Positions 7,077 through 11,749 of a stretch of DNA of 64,000 bases are shown here, piece by piece. The stretch covers positions 1,054,001-1,118,000 of the forward strand of contig NZ_JAUSXI010000001.1 in assembly GCF_030815865.1 (NCBI RefSeq), given 5' to 3'. This DNA comes from Arthrobacter globiformis (GTDB taxonomy: Bacteria; Actinomycetota; Actinomycetes; Actinomycetales; Micrococcaceae). The notes under the pieces were generated by a model, which was not told the origin of the DNA, made no database searches, and saw only the letters and a program-made list of their open reading frames with translations. Position 1 is the first letter of the stretch. Each line of letters begins with the position of its first letter. A program made the translations under genes and the position numbers.

Positions 7077-7086
7077 TCTCATTCGC

Positions 7087-7172
7087 GGTGACGGTGGGAT
7101 TTGAACCCACGTTGGCTTTTACACCAAACAACATTTCGAGTGTTGCACCTTCGGCCGCTCGGACACGTCACC
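7087..7172 (-). tRNA. tRNA-Ser (anticodon CGA)
   Basis: The minus strand folds as a class II tRNA of 86 nt. The acceptor is GGTGAC...GTCACC, the anticodon arm is CAACA-CTCGAAA-TGTTG, there is a long variable arm and a TTCAAAT T-loop. Anticodon CGA reads UCG serine codons. The CCA end is not encoded. Confidence 0.95.
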
Positions 7173-7309: not shown

Positions 7310-8362
7310 ATGACTACTTCCCAGCACCAGACCGAAGCAACCGCATATTGGACCGTGGGCGCCGGCCAGGGTGAACTCCGCAACGAGGAGCTGCCCGTCC
7401 CCGGCCCGGAGGAGGCCCTGGTGCGCTCGCTGTACTCCGGCATCAGCAAGGGTACCGAACTCGTGGTCCACCAGGCCGCCGTTCCGCCGTGCGTCGCCGA
7501 GGAAATGCGCGCCCCGCACCAGAAGGGCTCCTTCCCGTCGCCGGTGAAGTTCGGCTACCTGTCCGTGGGCGTGGTGGAGCAGGGCCCGGCGGACTGGGTG
7601 GGGCAAACCGTGTTCTGTCTTCACCCGCACCAGGACCGCTACGTGGTCCCAGTGTCCTCGCTCACCCGCGTTCCCGACGCCGTTCCTCCCCGCCGCGCGG
7701 TCCTCACCGGCACCGTGGAAACGGCGGTCAACGCCCTTTGGGAGGCGGGGCCAAGGCTGGGTGACCGCGTCGCCGTGATCGGCGCCGGGCTGGTGGGCGG
7801 CATGGTGGCCACGCTGCTGCGCACGTTTCCCCTCGCACGGCTCCAGCTCGTGGACCTCGACCCCTCGCGCAAGGGCCTCGCCGACGCCGTCGGCGTCGAC
7901 TTCGCCCTTCCGGAAGATGCCCTGCCGGACTGCGACATCGTGTTCCACTGCTCGGCGTCCGAGGGCGGACTGGAACGCAGCCTGAAGCTGGTGGGGGACG
8001 AGGGCGACATCATCGAAATGTCCTGGTACGCCGACAGGAAAATAACGCTCCCGCTCGGTGAGGACTTCCACGCCCGCAGGCTGTCCATCCGCGCCAGCCA
8101 GGTGGGCGCCGTGGCACGGGCCCGCCGGCACCGCCGGACCAACGCCGACAGGCTGGAGCTCGCTGTGTCCCTGCTGAAGGACCCGGTGTTCGATGCCTTC
8201 CTTACCGGCGCCTCCGACTTCACCGGGCTGCCCGGCGTGGTCCAGGACCTGGCCGAGGGCCGGCTCGAAGCGCTGTGCCACGTCATCGAATACCCGTTCA
8301 CTGAAGCCACCGGCGCCGAAAACACCGTCCGTAAAACCGAACCCACAGAAACCGCGAGGTAA
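7310..8362 (+). CDS. BchC-like zinc-free medium-chain dehydrogenase
   Basis: 350 residues of the medium-chain dehydrogenase/reductase superfamily. Residues 43-50 read SGISKGTE where zinc alcohol dehydrogenases have the catalytic Cys and His, the variant seen in the BchC (bacteriochlorophyllide dehydrogenase-like) branch. No four-cysteine structural-zinc loop is present. A Rossmann fingerprint V-I-G-A-G-L-V-G-G lies at residues 156-164 with LVDLD about 25 residues on, suggesting NAD(P)H. ATG 7310 is the likely start; a TAGATT box lies 10 nt before it and there is no ribosome site. It is the first gene of a four-gene operon, 3 nt from the next. Substrate unknown. Confidence 0.82.
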   Translation: MTTSQHQTEATAYWTVGAGQGELRNEELPVPGPEEALVRSLYSGISKGTELVVHQAAVPPCVAEEMRAPHQKGSFPSPVKFGYLSVGVVEQGPADWVGQTVFCLHPHQDRYVVPVSSLTRVPDAVPPRRAVLTGTVETAVNALWEAGPRLGDRVAVIGAGLVGGMVATLLRTFPLARLQLVDLDPSRKGLADAVGVDFALPEDALPDCDIVFHCSASEGGLERSLKLVGDEGDIIEMSWYADRKITLPLGEDFHARRLSIRASQVGAVARARRHRRTNADRLELAVSLLKDPVFDAFLTGASDFTGLPGVVQDLAEGRLEALCHVIEYPFTEATGAENTVRKTEPTETAR

Positions 8363-8365
8363 CCA

Positions 8366-8779
8366 GTGTTCAGCCTGACCGTACGCCGCCACTTTATGAT
8401 CGCCCACAGCCTTCCCCGCGAGGCCTTCGGGCCTGCCCAAGGCCTGCACGGGGCGACCTTCGTCGCGGAGGTGACGTTCCGCCGTCGTGCCGTCAACGAC
8501 GACGCCATCGTCTTGGACATCGGCGCGGCTGGCGACATGATCGAGGAGGTGCTGGCCGGGCTCAACTACCGGAACCTGGACGAGCACCCGGACTTCGCCG
8601 GCAAACTGAGCACCACGGAGGCGCTGGCGCAGTACATTGCCGACGCCGTCGCGGAGCGCTTGCGGGAGGACAAGGACGGACGGGAACTCGCGGGCCTTGA
8701 CGTCACCCTCCGGGAAAACCCCGATGCCTGGGCAAGCTATGCCCTCGAGTTCCAGGCCCTCGAGCCCGACCCCCGCTGA
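8366..8779 (+). CDS. PTPS/QueD-fold protein with degenerate active site
   Basis: 137 residues from a GTG start. The fold of 6-pyruvoyl-tetrahydropterin synthase/QueD is recognisable: FMIAHSLP (His14, first zinc ligand), GLHGATFVAEV (His28), LNYRNLDEHPDF and TTEALAQYIADAV, then LRENPDAWA. Relative to E. coli QueD, the catalytic Cys four residues before His28 is Ala24, the third zinc His is Ala30, and the LDHH catalytic histidine region is LNYR. Only the late Glu of LREN is kept. It is therefore unlikely to do standard pterin chemistry. It lies 3 nt after the dehydrogenase and 7 nt before the glycosyltransferase gene. Confidence 0.8.
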   Translation: MFSLTVRRHFMIAHSLPREAFGPAQGLHGATFVAEVTFRRRAVNDDAIVLDIGAAGDMIEEVLAGLNYRNLDEHPDFAGKLSTTEALAQYIADAVAERLREDKDGRELAGLDVTLRENPDAWASYALEFQALEPDPR

Positions 8780-8786
8780 CGCCGCC

Positions 8787-10007
8787 ATGCTGCCCCCGCT
8801 ACCGGCCCCGCCGCCAGCCATCCGCCTCCTGGTTCCCGCGAACATCCGCCACAACTCCGGCGGGAATGTCTACAACGCCGCGCTGGCGCAGGGCCTCGAG
8901 CAATTGGGAACCGAGGTAACCATCCAGCCGGTCGGCGGCGACTGGCCGGTGGGCAGCAAGGAAGAACGACGGCGGCTGGCCGGCTTGCTCACGGCGGGAA
9001 CCAGTGCAAGAACCCAACCAGGGTCCCCGGCGGGGGTGGCCGCCAACACCATCACGATCGTTGACGGCCTGGTGGCCTCCGGCGCCCCCGAAGCGATGGA
9101 GGCTGCCGCCGCGGCCGGCCACCCGCCGTGGGTCCTGCTGCACATGCCCCTGGACGAGCACCCGGACCTGGAAGCCCGGGCGCTGCGGGCGGCCGACGGC
9201 GTGATCTGCACCAGCGGCTCCGCCGCCGCTGAGATCAGCCGGCGGCACGGCCTGGCCGGCGTCCGCGCGGCGCTGCCCGGAACCGAGCGCGCCCGGGTGG
9301 CCGGCGGATCTGAGCCGCCGCGCCTGCTGGCCGTGGCGGCGCTGCTGCCGAACAAGGACCAACTGGTTCTCCTCGGGGCGCTGGCCCGGCTGCGGGATCT
9401 GGAGTGGACGGCTGCCCTCGTCGGTTCTGCCACGGCGGACCCCAACTACGCCCGCCAGGTCGCGGCGGCAGTAGACCGCTACGGCTTGGGCGGCCGGGTG
9501 CAGCTGCCCGGCGAACTGACCGGCGAGGCGCTGGAGCAGCAGTGGGACGCCGCTGACCTGAGCCTGCTGGTCTCCAAGGTGGAGGCTTTCGGCATGGCGG
9601 TCACCGAGTCGGTGGCCCGCGGGGTGCCGGTCATCGTCCGGGCCGGCACGGGGGCGGTGGAGGCGCTGGGGCTGGGTGCGGAAACTGCCCCAGGACCTCC
9701 GGACGGTGCTGGACCCGAACTGCCCGGCGCCGTCGTCGAACTCGGCGGTGTCGGTGACAGCGGTGACGCTGACAGCGGAGACGCTGGAGACGGCCAATCC
9801 GGGGAGGCGGACCCCGGGCCGCTGGCGGCTCAGCTCCGCAGCTGGCTCACAGACCCCGGGCTGCGCGCCGAATGGCGCCAGCGGGCCCTCGCCGGCAGGA
9901 AACTCCTGCCGGGCTGGGATGCCACTGCGCGGCAGGTGCTCGGCTACGTGGCGCCGAAAGCATGGCAGGGCAGCCATTCCTCGCAACCGCCTGCTGATGG
10001 AGAATGA
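8787..10007 (+). CDS. GT4-type glycosyltransferase
   Basis: 406 residues with the GT-B fold. The N-terminal domain opens IRLLVPANIRHNSGGNVYNAALAQGL. The C-terminal domain has RLLAVAALLPNKDQLVLLGALARL and the donor-binding E-x7-E region KVEAFGMAVTESVARGVPVIV. ATG 8787 is 7 nt after the PTPS stop; longer in-frame starts lie inside that gene. Oddity: after the nucleotide-sugar motif there is a low-complexity Gly/Asp/Ser run (about positions 9720-9810) inserted before the closing helix. Retaining glycosyl transfer from a nucleotide sugar is the family role; the acceptor is unknown. Confidence 0.85.
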   Translation: MLPPLPAPPPAIRLLVPANIRHNSGGNVYNAALAQGLEQLGTEVTIQPVGGDWPVGSKEERRRLAGLLTAGTSARTQPGSPAGVAANTITIVDGLVASGAPEAMEAAAAAGHPPWVLLHMPLDEHPDLEARALRAADGVICTSGSAAAEISRRHGLAGVRAALPGTERARVAGGSEPPRLLAVAALLPNKDQLVLLGALARLRDLEWTAALVGSATADPNYARQVAAAVDRYGLGGRVQLPGELTGEALEQQWDAADLSLLVSKVEAFGMAVTESVARGVPVIVRAGTGAVEALGLGAETAPGPPDGAGPELPGAVVELGGVGDSGDADSGDAGDGQSGEADPGPLAAQLRSWLTDPGLRAEWRQRALAGRKLLPGWDATARQVLGYVAPKAWQGSHSSQPPADGE

Positions 10008-10010
10008 GGC

Positions 10011-11234
10011 ATGACCAGCCACGTCCCGTCTGCCGCCACCCTGCCAACCGTTGAAGCCCTCACCCCGGAGCTGCTCCGTGCCTGGGCCTGGCACCGGCAG
10101 GGGCTGGACGGCACACTCGAAGGCCGCACGCCGCAGGAGGTGCTCGCCGCGGCGGGCTGGGCGAGGTCCGTGGGCGGCGCCAACCCGTACCTGACCCTCT
10201 TCGCCCGCGCCGGAATCCGGCGTGAGCAGGTGGATACGGACGTCCGCGAGCTCAGGATCCACGAACTGCCCACTGCCCGCGGCTGCACCTACGTGCTGGG
10301 CCGGGAGGACTTCGACTGGGCGCTGAGCCTGGGTAAAAGCGCCGAAGAGGCCTTCCGGGTGCTGGCGCGGCTCGGCGTCGACCGCGGCGAGATCACGCTG
10401 CTGGAGGAACAGATCCTGCACGTCCTCGGCGAAGCCGACGGTCCGCTGGACCCCAGGCAGCTCAAGGAGGAGCTGGGGGAGTCGGTGCGGAGCCTGGGCG
10501 AGGAAGGCAAGAAAAAGGGGGCAGCCACCACGCTGCCCACGGCATTGGGGCTGCTGCAGGCAGACGGCCGGATCGGCCGCGTTCCGGTCAACGGGCGGCT
10601 GGACCAGCAGCGCTATGCCTACACAACGTGGGGCCTGCCGCCCAGCCGGCTCGGCCCCGAAGGCGCCCGCGAGGAACTGATCCGCCGCTACCTCGGCTGG
10701 ACTGGCGGCGCCACCATTAGGCAATCCCAGTGGTTCACCGGCTTCACCCTCACCGACAGCAAGGCGGCGCTCGCCGCCGTCGGGGCCGTGGAGGTGCCCA
10801 CCGCCGGCGGCGACGTGCTTTGGATGCTGCCGGCCGACGTCGAACGCCTCGCGGACTTCAGTCCGCAGGAAGGGGAGCAGATCCAGCTGCTGGCCGGCAC
10901 CGATTCTCTGGTGCTGCACCGGCGGAACGCGGCGGACCTGTTTGCGGACGAGGACCGGGACCGGAAGCTGCTGAACGCCACCCTGGCGCTGCAGGCGGAC
11001 CTGCCTGACCATCCCATCTTTGACCGCGGCAGGATCATCGGGCTCTGGCAGTACGATCCCGGCAGGGAAAGGATCGCGGCCTGGCTCTTTGCTGGCCGGA
11101 CGCCCGCCGTCGAGCAGCGCATCGCCGAGGTTGAGGCGTGGATCCGGGAGGACCTGGGCGACTTCCGCTCCTTCAGCCTGGATTCACCGGCGTCCCGCCA
11201 GGAGCGGATCGACGCGCTGGATTCCGCCGGCTAG
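10011..11234 (+). CDS. Winged-helix DNA-binding domain protein (AlkZ/YcaQ-like superfamily, HTH_42)
   Basis: 407 residues resembling the HTH_42 group that includes the crosslink-repair glycosylases AlkZ and YcaQ: repeated winged-helix units, ARSVGGANPYLTLFARAGI near the N-terminus, YLGWTGGATIRQSQWFTGFT in the middle, and LVLHRRNAADLF toward the C-terminus. The Q-x-Q or Q-x-D catalytic motif of AlkZ/YcaQ is not where those enzymes have it, so glycosylase activity is uncertain. It starts 3 nt after the glycosyltransferase stop, making it the last gene of the operon. The pairing of a DNA-binding protein with these metabolic genes is unexplained. Confidence 0.65.
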   Translation: MTSHVPSAATLPTVEALTPELLRAWAWHRQGLDGTLEGRTPQEVLAAAGWARSVGGANPYLTLFARAGIRREQVDTDVRELRIHELPTARGCTYVLGREDFDWALSLGKSAEEAFRVLARLGVDRGEITLLEEQILHVLGEADGPLDPRQLKEELGESVRSLGEEGKKKGAATTLPTALGLLQADGRIGRVPVNGRLDQQRYAYTTWGLPPSRLGPEGAREELIRRYLGWTGGATIRQSQWFTGFTLTDSKAALAAVGAVEVPTAGGDVLWMLPADVERLADFSPQEGEQIQLLAGTDSLVLHRRNAADLFADEDRDRKLLNATLALQADLPDHPIFDRGRIIGLWQYDPGRERIAAWLFAGRTPAVEQRIAEVEAWIREDLGDFRSFSLDSPASRQERIDALDSAG

Positions 11235-11242
11235 CAGGCCCG

Positions 11243-11749
11243 TTAACTTCCGGTGCGGTGCGCCGCAAAGAACTCCCGCAGCAGCATGCCGCATTCCTCC
11301 TCCTGCACACCGGCGTAAACCTCTACCCAATGGTTTAGGCGGCGCTCGCGCAGAATGTCGAACACGGAGCCCGCCGCCCCCGCCTTCTCATCCCAGGCCC
11401 CGAACACCACGCGGTGGATCCGGGCCAGAACGATCGCGCCGGCACACATGGCGCACGGTTCCAGGGTCACCACCAGCGTGCAGTCCTCCAGCCGCCACCC
11501 GTCGCCACGGCCGCCGCCGAGAGCCGCGCGTTCCCGCAGCCGTGCTGCGGCCTCGCGGATGGCCACCACCTCGGCGTGCGCGGTGGGGTCCCCGAGGGCC
11601 TCGCGCTCGTTGCGTCCGGCGCCCAAAACAGTTCCGTCCGGACCGATCACGACGGCGCCGATGGGCACATCCTCGGTAGCCAGGGCCCGCCGGGCTTCTT
11701 CGAGGGCAAGGCCCATCCATTCCAGGTGTTGCGGATCTGCCGGCGCCAT
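11243..11749 (-). CDS. tadA: tRNA-adenosine deaminase TadA
   Basis: 168 residues of the cytidine-deaminase fold. The zinc site is complete: H58-A-E60 (TAHAEVVA) and P-C99-A-M-C102. Length and motifs fit TadA, which converts A34 to inosine in tRNA-Arg(ACG); that tRNA is encoded at 28219-28291. A TATCAT box (11756-11761, minus) sits exactly 6 nt before the ATG with no ribosome site, as expected for a leaderless mRNA. Its 3' end meets the convergent operon at 11234. Confidence 0.93.
   Translation of the reverse strand: MAPADPQHLEWMGLALEEARRALATEDVPIGAVVIGPDGTVLGAGRNEREALGDPTAHAEVVAIREAAARLRERAALGGGRGDGWRLEDCTLVVTLEPCAMCAGAIVLARIHRVVFGAWDEKAGAAGSVFDILRERRLNHWVEVYAGVQEEECGMLLREFFAAHRTGS

Follow-up and report, generated by a model that had tools for sequence, protein, structure and literature searches.

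The window analyzed here is a 64,000-nt stretch (G000:C1:1054001-1118000) of the Arthrobacter globiformis genome, which comprises 5.11 Mb in one contig. At positions 7310-11234, it carries a run of four genes, which were annotated as follows:

7310-8362, + strand: medium-chain dehydrogenase/reductase (MDR) without the usual zinc ligands, belonging to a cluster-specific family (open reading frame of 350 aa)
8366-8779, + strand: protein with the 6-pyruvoyltetrahydropterin synthase (PTPS) fold, ortholog of SCO6650 (GTG start, 137 aa)
8787-10007, + strand: glycosyltransferase of family 4 type (GT4; 406 aa)
10011-11234, + strand: AlkZ-like winged-helix protein (407 aa)

The intergenic gaps in this run are 3, 7, and 3 nt, and the single-operon layout proposed by a first-pass annotation, which was made from the sequence alone, is upheld by the open reading frames and these gaps. 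That annotation also knew of no pathway with this gene set. This holds for the MDR, PTPS, and glycosyltransferase combination, but the PTPS-like protein has an ortholog, SCO6650, with a solved structure already on record (PDB 3d7j, labelled “uncharacterized”). No assignment of the combination was found in the open-licence literature, which is weak evidence of absence given that few papers were covered, and the terms looked for were absent from a 2026 review of pterins in bacteria (PMC13259868). As described below, the operon holds a reduced version of a real, widespread, and uncharacterised pathway, together with one passenger gene.

The first three genes were found together well beyond Arthrobacter. 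All counts for Arthrobacter/Pseudarthrobacter-type loci refer to the best 80 of 204 confirmed loci; the MDR and PTPS genes occurred together in all 80, and the GT4 gene came next in 77. In the other three (L053, L064, and L080), the GT4 gene was missing, and the MDR and PTPS genes stayed side by side. The closest locus among those returned was that of Arthrobacter sp. ISL-65, whose PTPS-like protein is 99% identical. A phylum-wide search of 296 genomes gave PTPS matches in 77, of which eight exceeded 120 bits, and MDR matches at E ≤ 1e-10 in 42. An MDR match of at least 100 bits was present in 37 genomes, and in all of these but G100 (36) the PTPS gene lay beside it; 30 of these neighbours were within 600 nt, one (G065) was slightly beyond this distance, as judged from coordinates only, and five were recovered by tblastn with nearer queries. 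Conversely, an MDR gene adjoined 24 of the 25 PTPS matches of at least 50 bits, and the remaining match was at a contig end. A class-wide search covering 394 genomes yielded 59 with the MDR, and fifty further loci were added; two genomes with weak MDR matches (G337, 119 bits, and G401, 87 bits) were not taken in. The tblastn scoring covered 78 actinobacterial loci in total, and clusters were counted in those 49 of 56 Actinomycetes loci whose flanks both reached 6 kb (the other 7 were dropped because a flank was shorter). Outside the 78 were L176 (from G100), a QueD-like control (L139), an MDR fragment (L152), and the plasmid loci L141-L151. The gene order MDR-PTPS-GT4 of the SCO6650-type cluster core is present in the window; of the four genes, only the first three are grouped beyond chance. 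Seven pairwise comparisons indicated purifying selection on all four genes, with dN/dS (the ratio of nonsynonymous to synonymous substitution rates) of 0.14-0.23 for the MDR, 0.03-0.20 for the PTPS-like protein, 0.22-0.46 for the GT4 (one of its pairs, with L003, spans 230 codons only), and 0.11-0.18 for the AlkZ-like protein; gene calling used a codon model.

The AlkZ-like protein passes the PF06224 model (99.8 bits against a gathering score of 25.9). Its gene is the last of the operon, which is flanked by two features on the opposite strand:

7085-7172, - strand: tRNA-Ser, just upstream of the MDR gene
11243-11749, - strand: deaminase-like gene (named tadA by eye), next after the AlkZ-like gene

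The AlkZ-like gene was found in 44 of the 80 Arthrobacter-type loci and was missing from the other 36. Three of these 36 had no downstream gene called; in the remaining 33, the deaminase-like gene came next (28 loci), followed a small open reading frame (3 loci), or lay under a different open reading frame call (2 loci). The next three window genes downstream occurred in 71, 75, and 75 of the 80 loci, and tblastn detected the AlkZ-like gene in 0 of the 49 wider actinobacterial clusters. Because its presence is patchy and the downstream genes are common to the loci, the AlkZ-like gene is a lineage-specific passenger at a fixed chromosomal place, outside the conserved core, and it was ruled out as a member of the set. 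The co-occurrence of all four families across Actinobacteria, which the first-pass annotation had put forward as a check, was thus found for MDR-PTPS-GT4 and failed for the winged-helix gene. The same pattern bears on the idea of a four-gene nucleic-acid system, in which the other three proteins would modify and glycosylate a base that the AlkZ-like protein then acts on. The homology to AlkZ and the tight spacing agree with such a system. AlkZ DNA glycosylases carry a catalytic QxQ/QxD motif; two AlkZ-like paralogs in the same genome (L114 and L115) read QAQ at the aligned place and a third (L117) reads HAQ (L116 aligns poorly), whereas neither QxQ nor QxD was found at this place in the operon protein and four of its orthologs. 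Moreover, the only PADLOC match among the four operon genes was a weak one of 15.8 bits for the MDR, and a link to a defence system was set aside on this basis. With the gene absent from 36 relatives and all of the wider clusters, we regard the nucleic-acid system as very improbable.

The PTPS-like protein matches Pfam PF01242 (87 bits), and its sole PDB match at E ≤ 0.01 is 3d7j, i.e., SCO6650 (130.8 bits, E 3.6e-37, 126 residues), in which the residue replacements are identical. The full-length similarity, the Ala residues that replace Cys and the third His, and the anchor Glu place it in the SCO6650-type family. Residue places were mapped via 3d7j and QueD and counted over 108 sequences: 91 of class A (Arthrobacter-type, families f5 and f7, and proteobacteria), 12 of family f18, four haloarchaeal, and the QueD-like control. 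In the window protein, Ala24 stands at the Cys place (motif GPAQGLHGA), Ala30 at the third metal His place, and Asn67/Tyr68 at the Asp/His pair, and the metal ligands His14 and His28 and the ring-anchoring Glu117 are retained. The loss of metal and catalytic residues noted in the first-pass annotation is therefore right for the catalytic residues, but concerns only one of the three metal ligands. The Cys place was occupied by Ala in 91/91 class A sequences, 81/81 Arthrobacter-type ones among them, and in 12/12 f18 sequences; the four haloarchaeal proteins (L142-L145) have Glu here and read HSH where others read HGH. The third metal His was replaced by Ala in 91/91 class A sequences and was present in f18 (12/12) and haloarchaea (4/4). 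The catalytic His place holds Tyr or Phe in all class A and f18 proteins and Asp in the haloarchaeal ones, and the Asp place remains Asp in 3 of 107 sequences. The anchoring Glu was present in 108/108 sequences, including the control, which also retains Cys, Asp, and His. Judged from these alignments, the missing metal ligand characterises class A and not the whole SCO6650-type family, and ring binding is probably retained.

The window protein shares the T-fold of PF01242, the two metal His residues, and the anchoring Glu with the QueD/PTPS proteins (COG0720 subfamilies I-III), but has no CxxxHGH, CxxxxxHGH, or ExxHGH motif, the motifs given for these subfamilies in PMC5041015 (2016, on COG0720). 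This article leaves the role of PTPS-V unclear and ties PTPS-IV to F420 as unpublished; the SCO6650-type family may correspond to either of them or to neither. Membership in QueD was rejected (36.7 bits against a cut-off of 89.25, with the catalytic motif and the third metal His missing). In databases, several members are named “6-carboxytetrahydropterin synthase” and one match “putative uncharacterized protein SCO6650”; the former name is misleading for SCO6650-type members. The altered residues might be explained if the PTPS-like protein served only for binding or as a scaffold, without catalysis, and thereby sensed a pterin or pyrimidine and controlled an MDR and glycosyltransferase acting on something else. 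The replacement of Cys by Ala and of the catalytic His by Tyr or Phe throughout class A is what such a subunit might show, and SCO6650 reportedly lacked PTPS activity (on dihydroneopterin triphosphate) in work ascribed to Spoonamore in 2008. On the other hand, Ala24, Ala30, and Tyr68 are nearly fixed, and f18 and the haloarchaea retain three metal His residues, which looks more like altered catalysis, and we consider the scaffold explanation improbable. The protein had been called inactive-looking; the residue changes are real, but most are fixed across lineages, and this is not decay.

The MDR has no Pfam match at E ≤ 0.01. Its top NCBIfam match is BchC (chlorophyllide dehydrogenase, TIGR01202), but the score of 39.2 bits is far under the cut-off of 291.25, and membership in BchC was rejected. 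Its loss of the metal residues of the parent family was borne out: Ser46 and G82-Y83-L84 stand at what we take to be the zinc-ligand places, where Cys and GHE are typical. The 95% consensus of 34 bacterial and archaeal sequences includes S-x-x-S-x-G-T-E, G-Y, P-H, S-W-Y, L-G-x-x-F-H, and Q-V, and the classical zinc ligands were not found in it. Identity was mostly 51-60% to the orthologs of other Actinomycetes families and 52% to a gammaproteobacterial one. The AlphaFold model had a mean predicted local distance difference test score (pLDDT) of 51.6 and was unusable.

In contrast to the window, the clusters of other Actinomycetes contain additional genes. In the 49 clusters, the MDR gene was accompanied by genes for a PTPS-like protein (49), a glycosyltransferase (49), a CDP-alcohol phosphatidyltransferase (46), an LPG-synthase-TM protein (45), a methyltransferase (44), GTP cyclohydrolase II (GCHII; 42), a creatininase-family protein (30), and a RibD_C reductase (18). 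The partner families were upheld by Pfam on representatives, and all four creatininases scanned from f5 clusters matched PF02633 at 208-215 bits. Family f5 is presumably Streptomyces, in which SCO6650 is the ortholog of the window PTPS with like residue replacements; its clusters add the methyltransferase, LPG-synthase-TM protein, CDP-alcohol phosphatidyltransferase, creatininase, and cyclohydrolase, whereas none of those tested adjoins the window trio. In haloarchaea, a GTP cyclohydrolase III (GCH III) gene was directly upstream of the MDR gene in two of five loci (the Pfam scan covered L141 alone); another locus had a creatininase gene ~5 kb off.

Similar sets also occur in distant lineages and on plasmids. 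MDR matches came from 106 plasmid records, of which 40 were listed and 12 opened. Among the opened ones, all or most of the trio was present on plasmids of Thiodictyon, Methylosinus, Peteryoungia, two Rhizobium, one Arthrobacter, and four of five haloarchaea. The full trio occurred in three of the five haloarchaeal records opened, and in L143 the GT4 gene was not adjacent. In quick-method, midpoint-rooted trees of the MDR, PTPS, and GT4 proteins (34, 33, and 24 rows), the Arthrobacter-type, f5, and f7 sequences clustered with proteobacteria in the MDR and PTPS trees, apart from f18 of the same phylum, and f18 sat with the haloarchaea in the MDR tree. The GT4 tree upheld the Arthrobacter-f5-f7 grouping (support 99). 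The MDR and PTPS patterns look as if the genes had been transferred as one unit.

The cyclohydrolases offer a clue to the substrate. According to PMC9478397, GCHII produces 2,5-diamino-6-ribosylamino-4(3H)-pyrimidinone 5'-phosphate (DARoPP) via the formyl intermediate 2-amino-5-formylamino-6-ribosylamino-4(3H)-pyrimidinone 5'-phosphate (AFRPP, also called FAPy), whereas archaeal GCH III ends at AFRPP, which the creatininase-family protein BrbF deformylates. We examined the place of E. coli Tyr105 in 54 readable cluster GCHII sequences from 53 genomes (G028 contributes two, L181 and L182), taken from tblastn alignments. In clusters with a creatininase, this residue was other than Tyr in 30/30 (Met 21, Leu 4, His 4, Gln 1), whereas in those without one it was Tyr in 22/24, both exceptions being Leu in family f89 (Fisher's exact p = 3.5e-13, with related rows). 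Three alphaproteobacterial clusters, outside the 54, also combine a Tyr-type GCHII with no creatininase. A RibD_C gene was present in 22/22 Tyr-type clusters. This logic resembles the split route to DARoPP in riboflavin biosynthesis (GCH III with ArfB or BrbF), in which a cyclohydrolase and a separate deformylase, described in PMC9478397, are joined by a RibD_C-type reductase, but the present clusters run on into the MDR, the PTPS fold, a glycosyltransferase, and a methyltransferase. That bacteria can glycosylate a GTP-derived pterin is known from CtPGT, which makes a biopterin glycoside (PMC5683033); the likeness is one of description, and that route, unlike the one considered here, passes through biopterin.

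A GTP-derived ring is indicated as the substrate by the GCHII and GCH III neighbours, the Tyr/creatininase pattern, and the anchor Glu, which never varies. It is also favoured by the two kinds of cyclohydrolase that serve the cluster, GCHII in bacteria and GCH III in haloarchaea. We therefore think it somewhat probable that MDR-PTPS-GT4 is the core of a branch from the first riboflavin intermediates to a glycosylated 2-amino-4-oxo-pyrimidine or pterin-like product, with the window as a reduced version. The first-pass annotation had suggested a glycosylated pteridine or other heterocycle, and the cyclohydrolase, creatininase, and RibD_C neighbours of the larger clusters favour this suggestion. 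Conservation, co-location, residue patterns, and tree grouping are what we observe directly; the substrate class is likely on this basis, and the particular substrate, the order and nature of every enzymatic step, and the product are offered as the following scheme. In the fuller clusters, GTP would be opened by GCHII (in haloarchaea by GCH III) to a 2-amino-4-oxo-pyrimidine ribosyl phosphate. Where the cyclohydrolase halts at FAPy, the creatininase-family protein would take off the formyl group; a Tyr-type enzyme would go the whole way and need no deformylase. The RibD_C reductase may then often turn the ribose into ribityl. The conserved Glu of the PTPS-like protein would hold the 2-amino-4-oxo ring, and this protein may perform a different, probably side-chain, chemistry because the PTPS catalytic residues are gone. 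The MDR would catalyze an NAD(P)-linked redox step and the GT4 a sugar addition. Where present, the methyltransferase, the CDP-alcohol phosphatidyltransferase, and the membrane protein could finish, possibly lipidate, and move the product. In the source strain, which has MDR-PTPS-GT4 only, the pyrimidine might come from riboflavin enzymes or an unlinked cyclohydrolase.

A broader form of this scheme is possible, though we hold it to be rather doubtful. Here, a branch common to bacteria and haloarchaea would keep the 2-amino group, use a PTPS-fold enzyme with new chemistry where riboflavin synthesis uses lumazine synthase, and yield a pterin-like compound that is glycosylated, methylated, and anchored by a lipid and may serve as a redox cofactor in the membrane. 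It would be fed in one of two ways: by a Tyr-type GCHII with RibD_C, or by a creatininase-family deformylase together with either a Tyr-less GCHII or GCH III. The redox cofactor idea comes from a cytochrome b561-type gene beside RibD_C in four of the five proteobacterial clusters opened (L146, L148, L149, and L151), which hints at a membrane redox role.

The first-pass annotation also offered a sugar-nucleotide pathway. In such a cell-envelope pathway, the PTPS fold would be re-used on a sugar, the MDR would oxidise a sugar, and the GT4, CDP-alcohol phosphatidyltransferase, and LPG-synthase-TM protein would make a glycolipid, with the cyclohydrolases incidental. The latter three are indeed frequent partners, and among solved protein chains the MDR is best matched by a sorbitol dehydrogenase. 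However, the presence of GCHII in 42 of the 49 clusters, the Tyr/creatininase pattern, the archaeal GCH III, and the invariant Glu argue for a GTP-derived ring, and the cyclohydrolase association is poorly accounted for by a sugar substrate; we keep this pathway as an unlikely rival.

Several observations weigh against the proposed riboflavin-intermediate branch. The creatininase occurs in two families only (f5 and f89), as compared with 13 families that have Tyr and no creatininase, and the independent cases for the creatininase/Tyr rule are far fewer than 54, which makes the evidence much thinner than the p value. SCO6655 reportedly stops at FAPy because Met replaces E. coli Tyr105, and this applies to SCO6655 only; no assay of a GCHII with Leu, His, or Gln at this place is known to us. 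RibD_C was found in only 4 of the 30 creatininase clusters, which a common reductase step does not account for. No cyclohydrolase was found in three of the five haloarchaeal loci, and Natrarchaeobaculum L141 has the MDR and GCH III genes but no PTPS gene was found there; the next gene (L141:9012-9563) encodes a 183-aa protein with no Pfam match. Similarly, the Streptomyces plasmid L152 holds an MDR fragment, and no PTPS gene was found on it. Long-branch joins were flagged in the MDR and PTPS trees, and the deep forks of the GT4 tree are weak (57), with the alphaproteobacteria on the f18/haloarchaeal side. PMC2853524 lists SCO6655 among genes whose expression is anticorrelated with predicted flux (-0.61), but the GCHII SCO2687 is listed as well (-0.52), which is not discriminating.

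The Arthrobacter version adds further difficulties. GCHII, RibD_C, methyltransferase, LPG-synthase-TM, and CDP-alcohol phosphatidyltransferase genes were found in 0 of the 80 Arthrobacter-type loci (≤ 10 kb on each side), and the substrate there is therefore assigned by analogy. In the source genome, no creatininase was found, and searches with the f7 methyltransferase and LPG-synthase-TM protein gave no match, although an empty search is no proof by itself. The cluster RibD_C queries matched only riboflavin-type RibD in this genome, plus a short, weak match (L166). Two GCHII genes are present. The first is ~2 kb from a RibD gene, in what was judged to be a riboflavin operon. The second (G000:C1:2965087-2966565, L169:10088-11566) shares 73% identity with the f7 cluster GCHII, and its frame of 492 aa continues into the N-terminal domain of an acyl-CoA dehydrogenase; genes judged by eye to be of biotin type are nearby. 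This second gene is a candidate for a dedicated supplier, with the identity in favour and the in-frame extension against. An unlinked CDP-alcohol phosphatidyltransferase gene (G000:C1:598766-599365; L233, L234) encodes a protein 47% identical to that of the f7 cluster over ~200 residues and was the only source-genome match to the f7 query at E ≤ 0.001. These findings can also be read as a relic, the Arthrobacter trio being left over from a larger cluster and retained for some side function that has nothing to do with the original product; the five partner genes missing nearby and the loss of the GT4 gene from three loci agree with this. Against it are the purifying selection on all genes, the constant pairing of the MDR and PTPS genes, and the phosphatidyltransferase elsewhere in the genome, and we judge a relic to be quite unlikely. 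The simplest reading is that the Arthrobacter pathway is reduced or scattered.

Based on these results, a cluster without an assigned product spans actinobacterial families, some proteobacteria, and haloarchaea, despite one solved structure. The neighbourhood evidence narrows “function unknown” to a short list of candidate substrates (FAPy and DARoPP, each also in reduced form). It further predicts that FAPy deformylases occur among the actinobacterial creatininase-family proteins.

Finally, the GT4 protein passes Pfam PF00534 (60.6 bits against a gathering score of 26.4) and its gene is less conserved than the others of the set: across the seven pairs, the nonsynonymous rate (dN) exceeded that of the MDR by a factor of 1.1 to 4.5. 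A stretch rich in Gly, Asp, and Ser was observed at about residues 320-343 (positions ~9744-9815).

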